Shown here piece by piece: positions 28,289 to 34,448 of a stretch of 64,000 nucleotides of DNA. Each line of letters opens with the position of its first letter. Position 1 is the stretch's first letter. A program made the translations under genes and the position numbers. The notes below the pieces were generated by a model. That model saw only the letters and a list, made by a program, of their open reading frames with translations. It was not told the DNA's origin and did not search any database. Origin of the DNA: Pseudomonas sp. RSB 5.4 (GTDB taxonomy: Bacteria > Pseudomonadota > Gammaproteobacteria > Pseudomonadales > Pseudomonadaceae); contig NZ_CP146986.1 in the NCBI RefSeq assembly GCF_037126175.1, forward strand, positions 3,066,501 through 3,130,500. The letters run 5' to 3'.

Positions 28289-28300
28289 TCCCCTATCCTT

Positions 28301-28388
28301 GTGGGAGCGAGCTTGCTCGCGAAAGCGGTGGGTCAGTCGCTAGTTGAATTGCCTGACACTACGCCTTCGCGAGCGAGCTCGCTCCCAC
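28301..28388. repeat. REPIN, family I
   Basis: Outward pair with the GAGCGAGCTTGCTCGCG variant; it starts 13 bp after the gap stop. Confidence 0.9.
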
Positions 28389-28434
28389 AAGGTTTTTCGC
28401 TGTATTCAAAATCAAGGCTTGACCACTCAACTGG

Positions 28435-28451
28435 ATGATAAGCATTATCAT
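28435..28451. promoter_or_regulatory. Fur box upstream of hxuI
   Basis: ATGATAA-GCA-TTATCAT is a perfect 7-bp inverted repeat of the Fur type, 27 bp before the sigma-factor GTG. It implies iron repression of the signalling genes. Confidence 0.75.
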
Positions 28452-28477: not shown

Positions 28478-28996
28478 GTGAGTCAATCGCGCTTCAATCA
28501 TGTCTTTCTCTCTCAGCGCACGTCCCTGCTGCGCACGATCGAGCGCATGGTCAACAACCACAGCACCGCCGAAGACCTGTTGCAGGAAACCTACCTGCGC
28601 GTGACGCGGGCGTTGAGCGAGCGCGCCATCGATCACCTTGAACCCTTCGTGTTTCAGACCGCGCGCAATCTGGCGCTGGATCACCTGCGCGCGCGCAAGA
28701 TCCATTCGCGGACCATGGTCGATGACGTGCCGCAGGACGTGGTGCACAGCGTCGCCGCCCCCGCCAGCAGCGCCGAAGACGCCGCCCACGCCGAACAATT
28801 GCTGGAGCGCCTGAACGTGAGCCTCAGTCAACTCAGCCCGCGTCAGCAGCAGATTTTCATCCTCAGCCGCCTGCACGGGCACAGCTACCAGGAAATCGCC
28901 GACGAGCTGAATGTGTCCCTCAGCACCGTGCAGAAGGAACTCAAGCTGATCATGTCGATCTGCATCGGTGTCGCCGAGCGCTTGAATGGCGCCTGA
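28478..28996 (+). CDS. hxuI: FecI-type ECF sigma factor for haem uptake (HxuI-like)
   Basis: The 172-aa protein has sigma region 2 (AEDLLQETYLRV near residue 31, FVFQTARNLALDHLRARK near residue 61) and region 4 (LSPRQQQIFILSRLHGHSYQ near residue 115). It starts with GTG; no ATG fits. With the FecR-like gene, the receptor and hemO it forms a cell-surface signalling unit like P. aeruginosa HxuIRA. The symbol is by that analogy; a Has-type system is less likely because no hasA is present. Confidence 0.85.
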   Translation: MSQSRFNHVFLSQRTSLLRTIERMVNNHSTAEDLLQETYLRVTRALSERAIDHLEPFVFQTARNLALDHLRARKIHSRTMVDDVPQDVVHSVAAPASSAEDAAHAEQLLERLNVSLSQLSPRQQQIFILSRLHGHSYQEIADELNVSLSTVQKELKLIMSICIGVAERLNGA

Positions 28997-29117
28997 GGTT
29001 GCAGGCGATTTCAGTCAGCAGCGTCGACTGCACTGATCATCGGGCTTTGCTACCCTTGCCCGACTTTTACGCTTCACTAAAAAAACAGCCGTGCACAGAC
29101 ACTGCCGAGGACACACC

Positions 29118-30083
29118 GTGACGGACACCCACCGCCCGCCTTCGCCCGCAACGGCGCAGGACGCCGCCCGTGCAATGGACCAGGCTCTGGACTGGCTCAT
29201 CGTGCTGGGCAGTGCGGACGAAGAGCAGACCCGGCAATTTCACGCATGGCTGGCGGCCGATCCGTTGAATGCCGAGGCGTTCGCCAAGGCTCAGGCGATC
29301 TGGGACGGACCGCAAGTAGTGCGGTGTGCGCAGAGTCTCGCGGCGAAGCCGGCGAAAGTCACGTTGCTCAAACGTCTGCGTCCGCACTGGAAACCGTTGG
29401 CGACTGCTGCGGTGCTGGTGCTCGGTCTGTTCAGTTTCAGCAACCTGCCGATGCGCCTTCAGGCCGATCATCTGACCGTGGTCGGCGAGCGTCAGCGCCT
29501 GCAGCTGGAGGACGGTTCCAAGGTGCTGCTCAACACCAACTCGGCATTCTCCAGCACCATCAACGAGCGCCAGCGCGTGGCGCGACTGTATCAGGGCGAA
29601 GCGTTTTTCGAGGTAGCGGCCAACCGGGCTCAGCCGCTGGAAATCGATGCCGGCCCGGTGCAGGCCAGCGTGCGCGACACTGCGTTCGCCGTGCGCTATC
29701 TGGACGGCGTGGCGCAGGTCAATGTGCAACGCGGCGATGTCGATCTGCGCGCCACGCACAACGATGCGCGAGTGCGTTTGAGCGCAGGCGAAAGCATCCG
29801 CATCGGGCCCAACGGTTTCGATCGCCCGGGCAAGCTCGATGCCGCGACCGACCTGGCCTGGGTCCAGGGCCGACTGGTGTTCGAGAACTGCCCGTTGAAT
29901 CAGGTGCTGGCCGAACTGCGCCGCTACTACCCGGGCTGGATCATCAACACCAACGAACAGTTGGCCGACGTCAACGTCACCGGCAACTACCGCCTCGACC
30001 AGCCGCTGGACGTGGTGCGCTCCCTCGCCCACATCACCTCGGCGCGCCTGCAGGAATTCCCCGCGCTGGTGATCCTGAACTAA
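29118..30083 (+). CDS. hxuR: FecR-type anti-sigma regulator (HxuR-like)
   Basis: The 321-aa inner-membrane protein has an N-terminal DUF4880 region that binds the sigma factor (AMDQALDWLIVL, FHAWLAADPLNAEAFAKA), a transmembrane helix near residues 90-105, and a periplasmic FecR domain. A C-terminal STN-like fold ends the protein (LVFENCPLNQVLAELRRYYP near residue 253). It should pass the receptor's haem signal to HxuI. I choose the GTG at 29118 because GAGG precedes it. Confidence 0.87.
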   Translation: MTDTHRPPSPATAQDAARAMDQALDWLIVLGSADEEQTRQFHAWLAADPLNAEAFAKAQAIWDGPQVVRCAQSLAAKPAKVTLLKRLRPHWKPLATAAVLVLGLFSFSNLPMRLQADHLTVVGERQRLQLEDGSKVLLNTNSAFSSTINERQRVARLYQGEAFFEVAANRAQPLEIDAGPVQASVRDTAFAVRYLDGVAQVNVQRGDVDLRATHNDARVRLSAGESIRIGPNGFDRPGKLDAATDLAWVQGRLVFENCPLNQVLAELRRYYPGWIINTNEQLADVNVTGNYRLDQPLDVVRSLAHITSARLQEFPALVILN

Positions 30084-30084
30084 A

Positions 30085-30099
30085 TGAGAATTATTTTTA
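30085..30099. promoter_or_regulatory. possible Fur box before hxuA
   Basis: TGAGAAT-T-ATTTTTA matches the 7-1-7 Fur motif TGATAAT-N-ATTATCA at 12 of 14 positions. It lies just after the hxuR stop and overlaps the T-block of the proposed ECF promoter. Confidence 0.4.
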
Positions 30100-30130
30100 C
30101 TCGATAGCGAAAGCCCGTTCGTCTCGTTAT
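30094..30130 (+). promoter_or_regulatory. proposed HxuI-dependent promoter of hxuA
   Basis: TTTTTAC, 12 bases, then GCCCGTTCGTCTCGTTAT. The CGTCTC core resembles ECF -10 elements. The same blocks with the same spacing recur before hemO. Confidence 0.65.
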
Positions 30131-30205
30131 AGCCAATGCAATTGATTCGCATCTTCGGAGGCGGATCAGCACCTATAAAGATTCGTGCGACACGGAGCGC
30201 TATCG

Positions 30206-32791
30206 ATGTCCTCTCGCCTTACCCGCCAGACTGCTTCCCCTTCCCGCGTATTGTCGTTGCTGACAGCCGCCATCCTCATGGCCGGCACTGCACCGCTGAT
30301 GGCTGCCACCGAACAACCGGCGCGCAACATGGGTGATTATTCGTTCTCGATCGGCCAGCAACCGCTGGTGTCGGCGCTCAATGCCTTCACCACTGTCACC
30401 GGTTGGCAGGTCGGCTTGCCGGCAGAATTGGGTCAGGGCGTATCGTCGCCGGGTGTGCGCGGTTCGCTGCCGCCGGAAAAAGCCCTGGAGCGCCTGTTGG
30501 TGGGGACCAACCTGAGCTTCCGCAAGCTGAGCAACAACAACGTGGTGCTGGAAAAGCGCAACAACAGCGGCGCACTCAATCTGGATCAGGTGACCATCAG
30601 CGCCACCCGCCAGGAACAATCGGTCAGCAGCGTGCCGGCCACCGTCACCGTGCAGACCCGCCAGGATCTGGATCGCAACAACGTCAACACCATCAAGGAT
30701 CTGGTGCGCTACGAGCCGGGCGTGTCGGTCGGCGGCGCCGGCCAGCGTGGCGGTATCAGCGGCTATAACATCCGTGGCATCGACGGCGACCGCATCCTGA
30801 CGCAGGTTGACGGCGTCGAAGTGCCGGACGGTTTCTTCAATGGCCCGTACGCCAAGACCCAGCGCAATTACGTCGACCCGGAAATCGTCAAACGCGTGGA
30901 AATCCTCCGTGGCCCGGCCTCGGTGCTGTACGGCAGCAACGCCATTGGTGGCGCCGTCAGCTACTACACCCTCGACCCGGACGACATCATCAAGCCCGGC
31001 AAAGACGTCGGCGCTCGCCTCAAAACCGGTTACAGCTCCGCCGATGAGAGCTGGCTGAAATCCGCCACCGTCGCTGGTCGTGCCGAGCAGTTCGACGGCT
31101 TGCTGCACTTCAGCCAGCGCGACGGTCACGAAACCGATTCCTACGGCAGCAACAACGGCACTGGCCTCGAGCGCACCGCCGCCAACCCGGAAGACGTCAA
31201 AGCGACCAACGTACTGGCGAAGATCGGCTGGAACTACAACGAAGGTTCGCGCCTGGGCCTGACCTACGAGAAGTACAAGGACGATCGCGACACCGATCAG
31301 AAAAGCGCCTACGGCGGCCCGTACTTCAATGGCGCGCCGACCATTCCCAACAGCATGCTGCCCGGCGGCATGTACCAGTGGCGTACCGGCAACGACACCA
31401 TCACCCGCGAGCGTTTCGGCCTGGAGCACAGCTTCGCCCTCGACAGCCTGCTGGCCGATAACGTGAAGTGGAGCCTCAATCACCAGATCGCCAAGACCGA
31501 CCAGAGCACCGAAGAGTTCTACTACCCGATGACCCGTAAAGTGCTGCGCACCCGCGACACGATCTACGAGGAAAAACAGTGGGTGTTCGATGCGCAACTG
31601 GACAAGGCGTTTGCCATCGGTGACACCGATCACGTGCTGACCTACGGCACCACGATCAAACAGCAGAAAGTCACCGGTTCGCGCAGCGGCGACGGCAAGT
31701 GCCTGGCAGTCGGTCGTGGCTGCACCGCCATCGGCGCCACCAGCGCGGCGGATGTGCTGAAAAAATCCAGCGACTTCCCGGACCCGACCATCAACACCTA
31801 CAGCCTGTTCGCCCAGGATCAGATCAGCTGGAACAAGTGGACCTTCCTGCCGGGTCTGCGCTACGACTACACCCAGCTCAAGCCGCACATCACTCAGGAA
31901 TTCCTCAACACCGTGGCCGCCGATGGCAACGGCACGGTCAGCGACGAGAACAAGACCTGGCACAAAGTCTCGCCCAAGTTCGGCCTGACCTACGCCCTGA
32001 CCGACAATTACACCTGGTACGGCCAGTACGCCGAAGGTTTCCGTACACCGACGGCGAAAGCGCTGTACGGGCGCTTCGAAAACAGCACCACCGGCTACAA
32101 CGTGGCGCCGAACCCGAACCTGGAACCGGAAAAAAGCAAAAGCTATGAAACCGGTCTGCGCGGCAACTTCGAGCAAGGCTCGTTCGACGTGGCAGTGTTC
32201 TATAACAAGTACCGCGATTTCATCAACGAAGACGCGGTCACCCCCGGCTACGACGAGCTGACCTTCCAGTCGAGCAACATCAAGCACGCGACCATCAAGG
32301 GCGCCGAAGTCAAAGGTCGTCTGAACCTCGATGCGTTCGGTGCGCCGCAAGGCCTCTACACCCAGGGCTCGATCGCTTACGCCTACGGTCGCAACAACGA
32401 CAACGGCGAACCGCTCAACAGCGTCAATCCGCTGACCGGCGTGTTCGGCCTGGGTTACGACCAGGACAACTACGGCGGCCTGCTGAGCTGGACCGTGGTG
32501 AAGAAAAAGGATCGCGTCGACGACAGCAACTTCAAGTCGCCGGATGGCGTCAGCAGCCAGTTCAAGACCCCGGGCTTCGGCATTCTCGATCTGGCCGGCT
32601 ACTACAAAGTCACCGACGACGTCACCGTCAGCGGCGGCATCTACAACCTGACCGACAAGAAATACTGGCTGTGGGATGACGTGCGCGGTTACGACAGCGT
32701 CGGCGAAGCCTCGGTGACGCAACCGGCCAACCTCGATCGTCTGACCCAACCGGGCCGCAACTTCGCGATCAATCTGGTCTGGGACATCTGA
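30206..32791 (+). CDS. hxuA: TonB-dependent haem receptor with STN signalling domain (HxuA-like)
   Basis: The 861-aa outer-membrane receptor has a signal peptide (MSSRLTRQTA... to APLMAA), an STN domain at about residues 38-110 that contacts HxuR, a plug domain from about 125 (DQVTISATRQEQ), and a 22-strand barrel. FRTP and NPNL boxes near residues 612 and 640 are typical of haem receptors, but no His lies between them; a Tyr (ALYGRF) does. The next gene is a haem oxygenase, which supports haem as ligand. Haem, haemoglobin or haemophore as direct source cannot be told. Confidence 0.9.
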   Translation: MSSRLTRQTASPSRVLSLLTAAILMAGTAPLMAATEQPARNMGDYSFSIGQQPLVSALNAFTTVTGWQVGLPAELGQGVSSPGVRGSLPPEKALERLLVGTNLSFRKLSNNNVVLEKRNNSGALNLDQVTISATRQEQSVSSVPATVTVQTRQDLDRNNVNTIKDLVRYEPGVSVGGAGQRGGISGYNIRGIDGDRILTQVDGVEVPDGFFNGPYAKTQRNYVDPEIVKRVEILRGPASVLYGSNAIGGAVSYYTLDPDDIIKPGKDVGARLKTGYSSADESWLKSATVAGRAEQFDGLLHFSQRDGHETDSYGSNNGTGLERTAANPEDVKATNVLAKIGWNYNEGSRLGLTYEKYKDDRDTDQKSAYGGPYFNGAPTIPNSMLPGGMYQWRTGNDTITRERFGLEHSFALDSLLADNVKWSLNHQIAKTDQSTEEFYYPMTRKVLRTRDTIYEEKQWVFDAQLDKAFAIGDTDHVLTYGTTIKQQKVTGSRSGDGKCLAVGRGCTAIGATSAADVLKKSSDFPDPTINTYSLFAQDQISWNKWTFLPGLRYDYTQLKPHITQEFLNTVAADGNGTVSDENKTWHKVSPKFGLTYALTDNYTWYGQYAEGFRTPTAKALYGRFENSTTGYNVAPNPNLEPEKSKSYETGLRGNFEQGSFDVAVFYNKYRDFINEDAVTPGYDELTFQSSNIKHATIKGAEVKGRLNLDAFGAPQGLYTQGSIAYAYGRNNDNGEPLNSVNPLTGVFGLGYDQDNYGGLLSWTVVKKKDRVDDSNFKSPDGVSSQFKTPGFGILDLAGYYKVTDDVTVSGGIYNLTDKKYWLWDDVRGYDSVGEASVTQPANLDRLTQPGRNFAINLVWDI

Positions 32792-32799
32792 TCCGGACG

Positions 32800-32842
32800 G
32801 CCCTGCGACGCGCATTGTTCAGCGCATCGCAGGGCTTTTTTT
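32800..32842 (+). terminator. hxuA terminator overlapping the hemO promoter
   Basis: A 14-pair stem with one mismatch (GCCCTGCGA...TCGCAGGGC) is followed by T7. The T-tract is also the T-block of the proposed hemO promoter. Confidence 0.85.
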
Positions 32843-32874
32843 ACGGTTTGGCACCTGCCCGTTCGTCTCGTTAT
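32838..32874 (+). promoter_or_regulatory. proposed HxuI-dependent promoter of hemO
   Basis: TTTTTAC, 12 bases, then GCCCGTTCGTCTCGTTAT, identical in both blocks and spacing to the element before hxuA. The 12-bp spacers share little sequence. It ends 28 bp before the hemO ATG. Confidence 0.65.
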
Positions 32875-32902: not shown

Positions 32903-33499
32903 ATGACCACATCGGAAAAAGCCCTGCGTTCACAACGCCTGAACCAGATCACCCACGAGCCGCACAGCAAGCTCGACGCCCTGGTCAAGGCCCACGCGCC
33001 GTTCGAAACCCGCGCCAACTTCGCGCGTTTCGTGGTCGCGCAATACCTGTTCCAGTCGGAGTTGGTAGACCTGTACAACGACGCCGAACTGGCTGCCATC
33101 GTCCCGGATCTGCCGGCCCGTTGCCGCGCCGAAGCGGCCAAGGCCGACCTGGCGGATCTGGACACCGACATCCCGGCACCGGTGGCCGGTGCGCTGAAAA
33201 ACCCGACCAAGGCTCGCGCCCTCGGCTGGATCTTCGTCTCCGAAGGTTCGAAGCTCGGCGCCGCGTTCCTGATCAAACGCGCGGTGGCGCTGGACCTCAG
33301 CGAAACCTTCGGCGCCCGTCACCTGGGCGAGCCGGAAGGCGGTCGTGCCGAAGGCTGGAAAAGCTTCGTGCGCACCCTCGACTCGCTGCAGTTCACTGCC
33401 GAGGAAGAAGCCGAAGTCGAGCAAGGCGCGATCGACGCGTTCAACCGCTTCACCGTGCTGCTGGAACAGGCTTACGCGACCGCAGCCGAACCGGCCTGA
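32903..33499 (+). CDS. hemO: biliverdin-producing haem oxygenase (HemO/PigA type)
   Basis: The 198-aa cytoplasmic enzyme opens the haem ring to release iron, CO and biliverdin. It matches the Pseudomonas PigA type: proximal-His region LNQITHEPHSKLD near residue 14, RANFARFVVAQYLFQ near residue 37, and the distal helix GWIFVSEGSKLGAAFL near residue 108. Its own terminator-separated promoter copies that of hxuA, so uptake and breakdown of haem are switched together. Confidence 0.93.
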   Translation: MTTSEKALRSQRLNQITHEPHSKLDALVKAHAPFETRANFARFVVAQYLFQSELVDLYNDAELAAIVPDLPARCRAEAAKADLADLDTDIPAPVAGALKNPTKARALGWIFVSEGSKLGAAFLIKRAVALDLSETFGARHLGEPEGGRAEGWKSFVRTLDSLQFTAEEEAEVEQGAIDAFNRFTVLLEQAYATAAEPA

Positions 33500-33517
33500 C
33501 ACAACACAAATCCCCTT

Positions 33518-33604
33518 GTGGGAGCGGGCTTGCTCGCGAATGCGCTGTGTCAGTCACCTGATATGTCACTGACACAGCGCATTCGCGAGCAAGCCCGCTC
33601 CCAC
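33518..33604. repeat. REPIN, family I, extended palindrome
   Basis: Outward pair whose inner flanks (GCGCTGTGTCAGT/ACTGACACAGCGC) also pair, so almost the whole 87 bp can fold into one hairpin. Confidence 0.9.
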
Positions 33605-33662
33605 ATGGGAACAGCGCTAGCCTGTAGAATCCCCCGTTTCGCCTCACAGCAATCCCGAGCCC

Positions 33663-34058: not shown

Positions 34059-34448
34059 CCGCCCGCTATTTTTGGCAAATGAGCTTTTGTGGTGAGGGGA
34101 TTCATCCCCGATGGCTGCGAAGCAGCCACTTATCAAGCATCTGCGGAGCGTCAGTGAAAACCGGGTTTCAGGTTTTGGGCCTGCTGCGCAGTCCATCGGG
34201 GATGAATCCCCTCACCACAAAGCCTCATCACCCGCAGCACTCCGGCGTTCATCAGGCTGAAACTTCCCTGTAATTAATCGCCTTTTCAGCACAATCCCCT
34301 GCGCAAACGTTTAGCGCTGACCGTTCGTCGGCAAGCGCCTCATGCGCCCTCGCTGCACGCCGATGAGCAATGCATGGCGCTGAATGGATTTGGCGAACCG
34401 GGTAGTTCATCCCGTGGCCACCTGCTCATTCATTCACGAGATCGCCCC
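34059..34448. other. gap between ybaN and the chemoreceptor gene
   Basis: The first part is a family II REP pair (34088-34219). The rest (34220-34448) has no gene I can support and should hold the chemoreceptor promoter; I could not identify a clear FliA or sigma-70 element. Confidence 0.5.
34088..34219. repeat. REP pair, family II variant
   Basis: TGTGGTGAGGGGATTCATCC and GGATGAATCCCCTCACCACA are exact inverted copies. Both arms carry the same GTGAG change from GCGAG, so pairing is conserved. Confidence 0.85.

Follow-up and report, generated by a model that had tools for sequence, protein, structure and literature searches.

A two-block promoter element shared by a haem receptor gene and hemO in Pseudomonas points to an adjacent FecI-type sigma factor

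A regulon similar to the one described here is the ecf7/PSPTO_1286 regulon of Pseudomonas syringae, in which the genes for the sigma factor, FecR, the receptor and the haem oxygenase HemO are likewise neighbours (Psyr_1107 to Psyr_1104). According to the part of PMC3597554 used here, deletion of ecf7 (Psyr_1107) in P. syringae B728a under low iron lowers hemO (Psyr_1104) 220-fold and the receptor gene (Psyr_1105) 166-fold (Table 4 of that paper). For fecR (Psyr_1106) in the same mutant the table gives a 1.5-fold decrease and the text "essentially not expressed". Two further sigma mutants also show lower hemO levels (by 6.7- and 7.9-fold), and control of hemO by this sigma factor may hence not be exclusive. 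ChIP-seq of the DC3000 equivalent PSPTO_1286, as reported in that part of the same source, included hemO and the receptor. Both genes of P. syringae depend on the sigma factor, as we propose for the present locus; gene order and the orthology statements of the paper are the grounds for the equivalence (PMC3597554, in part). In Pseudomonas protegens Pf-5 a haem/phu cluster (PFL_4625-4629) has been described whose sigma gene and hemO are raised in low iron; unlike for P. syringae, the part of this account used here gives no sigma mutant or promoter map (PMC3377617). Pseudomonas aeruginosa possesses HxuI-HxuR-HxuA, a haem-sensing set of ECF sigma factor, anti-sigma factor and receptor comparable to the one proposed here, and the HxuI motif proposed in the part of the paper considered differs in sequence from the TTTTTAC / CGTCT motif described below (PMC8768829). 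No publication giving the latter motif was found; most subscription literature was outside the scope of the search, so the motif is not claimed to be unpublished.

The locus is located on the 6.24-Mb, single-contig chromosome of Pseudomonas sp. RSB 5.4, within a stretch of 64,000 nucleotides that was analysed as a whole and is called the window. Its parts, with positions counted in the window, are:

28431..28449, + strand: predicted Fur-box-like operator 5' of the sigma gene (matching a Fur consensus at 14 of 19 positions)
28478..28996, + strand: FecI-type ECF sigma factor gene, 172 aa (ORF and domain matches)
29118..30083, + strand: FecR-type sigma regulator gene (domains FecR, DUF4880 and FecR_C)
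30094..30100, + strand: putative receptor promoter, upstream block TTTTTAC, -35-like (motif scan, conservation)
30120..30127, + strand: putative receptor promoter, downstream block CGTCTCGT, -10-like (motif scan, conservation)
30206..32791, + strand: gene of a TonB-dependent haem receptor, PhuR-like, with N-terminal STN signalling domain (earlier label hxuA)
32800..32842, + strand: predicted intrinsic terminator of the receptor gene, with a 14-bp stem containing one mismatch, an 8-base loop and seven T
32838..32844, + strand: putative hemO promoter, upstream block TTTTTAC, -35-like, overlapping the terminator tail
32864..32871, + strand: putative hemO promoter, downstream block CGTCTCGT, -10-like (motif scan, conservation)
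32903..33499, + strand: hemO, haem oxygenase gene, 198 aa (ORF, domain and structure matches)

The GTG at 29118 was chosen by us as the start of fecR, which the ORF list places at 29091. The receptor terminator was found by a script that allows a stem mismatch and was missed by a simple terminator scan. Regions 2 and 4 of an ECF sigma factor were both found in the product of the sigma gene, which lies beside the FecR-family regulator gene. The STN domain of the receptor (PF07660) covers residues 68-117, and HemO scores above the cut-off for PF01126. Palindromic intergenic repeats, recognized by eye, flank the cluster and its neighbours at about 28300-28393, 33515-33608 and 34088-34222. Elsewhere in the genome another gene encodes a haem oxygenase domain (PF01126; G000:C1:922119-922673, L268).

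A previous sequence-only reading of this DNA had pointed to an 18-mer before both the receptor gene and hemO, each time with TTTTTAC exactly 12 bases upstream and with different spacers. This is confirmed: the 18-mers are exact at 30113-30130 and 32857-32874, the upstream blocks lie at 30094-30100 and 32838-32844, and the 12-base spacers between them differ. Both sites can be written as TTTTTAC-N12-GCCCGTTCGTCTCGTTAT or, spanning 30094-30130 (receptor) and 32838-32874 (hemO), as TTTTTAC-N19-CGTCTCGTTAT. It is preferable to give the spacing as 19 bases, measured from TTTTTAC to CGTCT.

Scanning the window with up to three mismatches returned these two matches, as compared to none in 100 dinucleotide shuffles. 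In the whole genome the 18-mer is found at five places with up to three mismatches, namely the two exact ones at receptor and hemO and three with three mismatches each, which show no TTTTTAC within 60 bases upstream. The genome-wide search for both blocks, which the earlier reading had suggested as a check, places the exact core TTTTTAC-N19-CGTCT only before receptor and hemO in 6.24 Mb. Further regulon members in the own genome were considered and rejected: the exact core occurs at these two genes only, and none of the 10 places with one mismatch goes on as N-G-T after the last block. With up to two mismatches we obtained 211 motif matches in the whole genome versus 379 for a reversed control; since the control outnumbers the motif, no larger hidden motif set is visible. 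Among 199 genus genomes, 116 have a motif match if one mismatch is allowed, and those of the listed matches that were compared by eye all sit at receptor or hemO.

Conservation was evaluated in 80 named loci found via hemO (the best 80 of 270) plus the window, in 85 genus-genome stretches chosen by hemO position and 6 by motif match, and in 25 stretches from 24 genomes (23 of other genera) chosen by the sigma gene. Those named loci long enough to be tested share no identical 200-base stretch with the 85. The core was regarded as conserved if it showed at most one mismatch in 12 with a spacing of N18 or N19. Accordingly defined, it is present before the receptor gene in 185 of 187 loci (contig ends truncate the remaining two) and before hemO in 173/187. 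It was found before none of 190 sigma genes and none of 189 fecR genes at any spacing from 14 to 24; the same scan on the final locus set gave 0/189 and 0/188, respectively. The proposed targets carry the conserved two-block promoter expected of a FecI-type regulon. The figure for hemO leaves aside 29 haem oxygenase loci (among L324-L353), which are Pfam-derived and mostly from genomes already counted. The motif is present in 18 of them and absent in 11, of which 8 are only 35-45% identical to the window HemO; including these loci, and at spacing 19 only, the hemO motif is found in 156/216.

The 182 receptor sites with spacing 19 show 2.0 bits at every position of TTTTTAC and CGT; they were picked by the core itself, yet no readable receptor locus was excluded thereby. 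Spacers are mostly distinct, with 152 different ones among 185 receptor sites and 129 among 173 hemO sites. The full GCCCGTT is found in only 6/182 receptor and 10/152 hemO sites (spacing 19), whereby its GT adjoining CGTCT is partly kept, with T in 158/182 and 146/152 sites. Judged from the alignments, the conserved element is TTTTTAC-N18/19-CGTYT-N-GT, and GCCCGTT is not kept as a block. The spacing from TTTTTAC to CGTCT, 19 bases in the window, is 18 in some relatives. Receptor promoters further share a strongly conserved block following the -10 element (window 30129-30152, ATAGCCAATGCAA.TGATTCGCAT), which may be an operator.

The motif and the sigma gene tend to occur in the same genomes. 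Sigma matches at E<=1e-30 were obtained in 34 of the 148 genomes of a family sample, with at most 24 candidates scored per genome. The strict motif (0 mismatches, N18 or N19), scanned in the same 148-genome draw and judged by genome labels, is present in 25 of these 34 genomes versus 4 of the 114 without the sigma gene (Fisher p 7e-17, kinship among genomes being ignored). One of these 4 (G236) exhibits, next to the start of a contig, two motif sites whose spacing resembles that of receptor and hemO. When up to one mismatch is allowed, a looser test applied to sigma-bearing genomes only, the core is present in all 9 of them that gave no strict match: G278, G319 and G333 carry the exact core, and G241, G268, G270, G312, G315 and G318 carry variants.

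Upstream of the sigma gene a Fur-like site (at least 14/19 positions of the consensus) is predicted in 166/188 loci versus 0/188 shuffled sequences; the Fur operator of the window is predicted by the same kind of match. Receptor upstream regions reach at least 12/19 in 120/185 cases versus 11/185 shuffled, and only 2 reach 13. For hemO the corresponding numbers are 4/187 versus 5 shuffled, so there is no sign of Fur at this threshold. The Fur scores upstream of fecR (139/188 with at least 12) were set aside, as this region is the coding sequence of the sigma gene.

Based on these data, the two blocks very probably represent promoter elements of the adjacent FecI-type ECF sigma factor (28478-28996), common to receptor and hemO. 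The elements, their conservation and the co-occurrence with the sigma gene are taken from the present analysis, the sigma dependence of both genes from P. syringae. The same lines of evidence back the earlier proposal of a single adjacent ECF sigma factor for both genes, but not the names HxuI and hxuA or the GCCCGTT block that came with it. TTTTTAC would serve as -35 element and CGTCT(C)GT as -10 element, with 19 bases between them, or 18 in some relatives. Fur would repress the sigma and fecR genes via the box at 28431-28449, such that both would be made at low iron. FecR may hold or prime the sigma factor, and haem at the receptor would give a signal via the STN domain and FecR. The sigma factor would then start the receptor transcript, with start sites and direct binding in this species being predicted, and would also start hemO from an equal promoter laid on the receptor terminator. 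The terminator would thereby end the receptor transcript, and hemO would be set separately by the same signal. The spacing known from other iron-starvation sigma promoters is 16-17. The 18-19 bases seen here are longer than that, which counts against our reading, as do the loci without the hemO motif (14/187, and 11 of the 29 left aside), the drop of hemO in two other sigma mutants of P. syringae and the disagreement between table and text on fecR there, which bears on a possible feedback of the sigma factor on its own operon.

In the window the T-run of the hemO site doubles as the tail of the hairpin at 32800-32835, and according to the predicted hairpins the hemO promoter overlies the receptor terminator in most loci. 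A hairpin (score at least 8) directly precedes the T-run in 118/173 hemO sites versus 19/173 shuffled. TTTTTAC at hemO could hence be a mere terminator tail and, at the receptor, part of an A/T-rich operator, as a weak Fur-like stretch (at least 12/19) overlaps it there in many loci; the two-block match would then be partly coincidence and only CGTCT would matter. However, TTTTTAC is retained in 55/173 hemO sites that have no such hairpin, which a terminator alone does not explain. Moreover, the AC after the T-run is kept though terminators need no AC, none of 185 receptor sites reaches the hairpin score, and the distance to CGTCT is constant at 18-19. We regard a mere T-tail as very improbable. 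It is even less to be expected that the blocks bind another regulator, i.e. an activator or repressor acting together with the main sigma factor. Since binding of the ECF sigma factor is deduced here from sequence comparison, some room is left for such a regulator, but the layout, the restriction of the exact pair to two genes in the genome, the co-occurrence with the sigma gene and the sigma deletion and ChIP results from P. syringae (PMC3597554, in part) argue for the ECF sigma factor.

Alternatively, hemO could be transcribed mainly by read-through from the receptor promoter, its own motif being minor or a relic. This applies best to some of the 14/187 hemO loci without motif at up to one mismatch: in L111, L147, L153 and L154 palindromic repeat DNA takes the place between receptor and hemO, and in L210 and L232 hemO follows closely 3' of the receptor, all without motif, and hemO therefore needs read-through or another start in these loci. 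Of the others, L202, L304, L313 and L320 have weaker hemO motif variants with two or three mismatches, L208, L209 and L214 show hemO without a receptor or sigma match in the stretch examined, and in L204 the hemO match is only partial. As an explanation for the window, read-through is unlikely, since a strong terminator is predicted between receptor and hemO and the hemO motif is present in 173/187 loci, even in some in which hemO does not follow the receptor. Displaced hemO genes still have it, namely those that are divergent relative to the cluster (L206, L207), one at a distance of about 8 kb (G315) and those whose receptor lies on a separate contig (G009, G085); this also speaks against a simple duplication artefact. 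The repeats in L111, L147, L153 and L154 are of the type GTGGGAGCAA...TTGCTCCCAC. In L195 (G149) sigma and fecR are inverted relative to the receptor, and in G331 sigma gene and receptor are on different contigs (C24, C35), the receptor motif being present in both.

The receptor, called hxuA in the sequence-only reading, is indeed a TonB-dependent haem receptor, but is PhuR-like by structure match. The best match of residues 122-861 among solved structures is PhuR (8the), and plug and barrel are most PhuR-like, HxuA being absent from the solved structures matched. The closest receptor in our tree is that of P. parakoreensis (99% identical). The window HemO has P. aeruginosa HemO as its best solved-structure match. 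We compared a P. aeruginosa-like genome (G317, possibly a sister species), whose HemO shares 98% identity with the P. aeruginosa HemO of known structure. Its receptor, a single match at E<=1e-100 and PhuR-like, is 72% identical to the window receptor over residues 123-861, and unlike the latter has no STN domain. On the coding strand no motif with up to three mismatches is found upstream of its receptor gene or hemO, and within the 148-genome sample no sigma match at E<=1e-30 is among its listed matches (at most 24 candidates per genome). Because PhuR is the best structure match and G317 is without a listed sigma match, the names hxuA and HxuI are doubtful and should be used with care.

The receptor's signalling domain and FecR appear to be lost together. 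STN domain, FecR and sigma factor are all present in 181 of the 187 receptor loci, and 2 are contig ends. In L192, L197, L198 and L232 the STN domain is missing and FecR is short or missing, the sigma gene being kept; loci that have lost only one of STN and FecR were not seen among the 187. L192 retains a short ORF that holds the beginning of FecR; in L232 the sigma gene is followed by the receptor with no FecR match in between. All four keep the receptor motif. In the receptor tree (71 rows, quick method) L192, L197 and L198 form one clade inside the STN-bearing receptors, and L232 groups with L210, which has STN, at a support of 87, the branches of both being long. As the STN-less receptors occupy two places among STN-bearing ones, two losses of STN and FecR are likely, based on four loci and a quick tree. 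The G317 receptor falls within the same large tree group, its exact place not being fixed. A PhuR-type receptor with its own surface-signalling sigma factor and a promoter shared with hemO might be the older state in Pseudomonadaceae. Several lineages would have been uncoupled from the outside signal by joint loss of the STN domain and of the periplasmic part (or all) of FecR, with sigma factor and promoter kept; the P. aeruginosa arrangement (PhuR lacking STN, neither a sigma factor of this kind nor the shared promoter) would accordingly be an end point of erosion rather than the ground state. We consider the chances of this scenario evenly balanced.

The element provides a promoter code that can be used throughout the family for one haem-linked sigma factor, and it suggests that many pseudomonads have haem intake and breakdown under a single switch. 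This may also explain why the picture based on P. aeruginosa need not hold for other species. Moreover, loci that have naturally lost the STN domain, FecR or the hemO promoter allow the role of each part to be tested.

With regard to known systems, FecA of E. coli carries an STN domain as well, and the promoter blocks of E. coli fec differ from TTTTTAC / CGTCT. Like here, sigma factor and FecR of the E. coli FecI-FecR-FecA system drive the receptor gene at low iron under Fur, as far as the part of the source considered goes (PMC9249621). Unlike in E. coli fec, the promoter is found here at a second transcription unit as well, hemO, which encodes a cytoplasmic enzyme. HemI of Stenotrophomonas maltophilia is alike in being a FecI-like sigma factor that is Fur-controlled and required for hemin use, and is described as not autoregulated; unlike here, the phrase 'heme oxygenase' occurs 0 times in the text of that paper (PMC12772443). 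Joint sigma control of receptor and hemO is already known from P. syringae, and the present locus is a well-supported, largely ordinary case of it, to which our analysis adds a precise family-wide promoter code and a series of losses.
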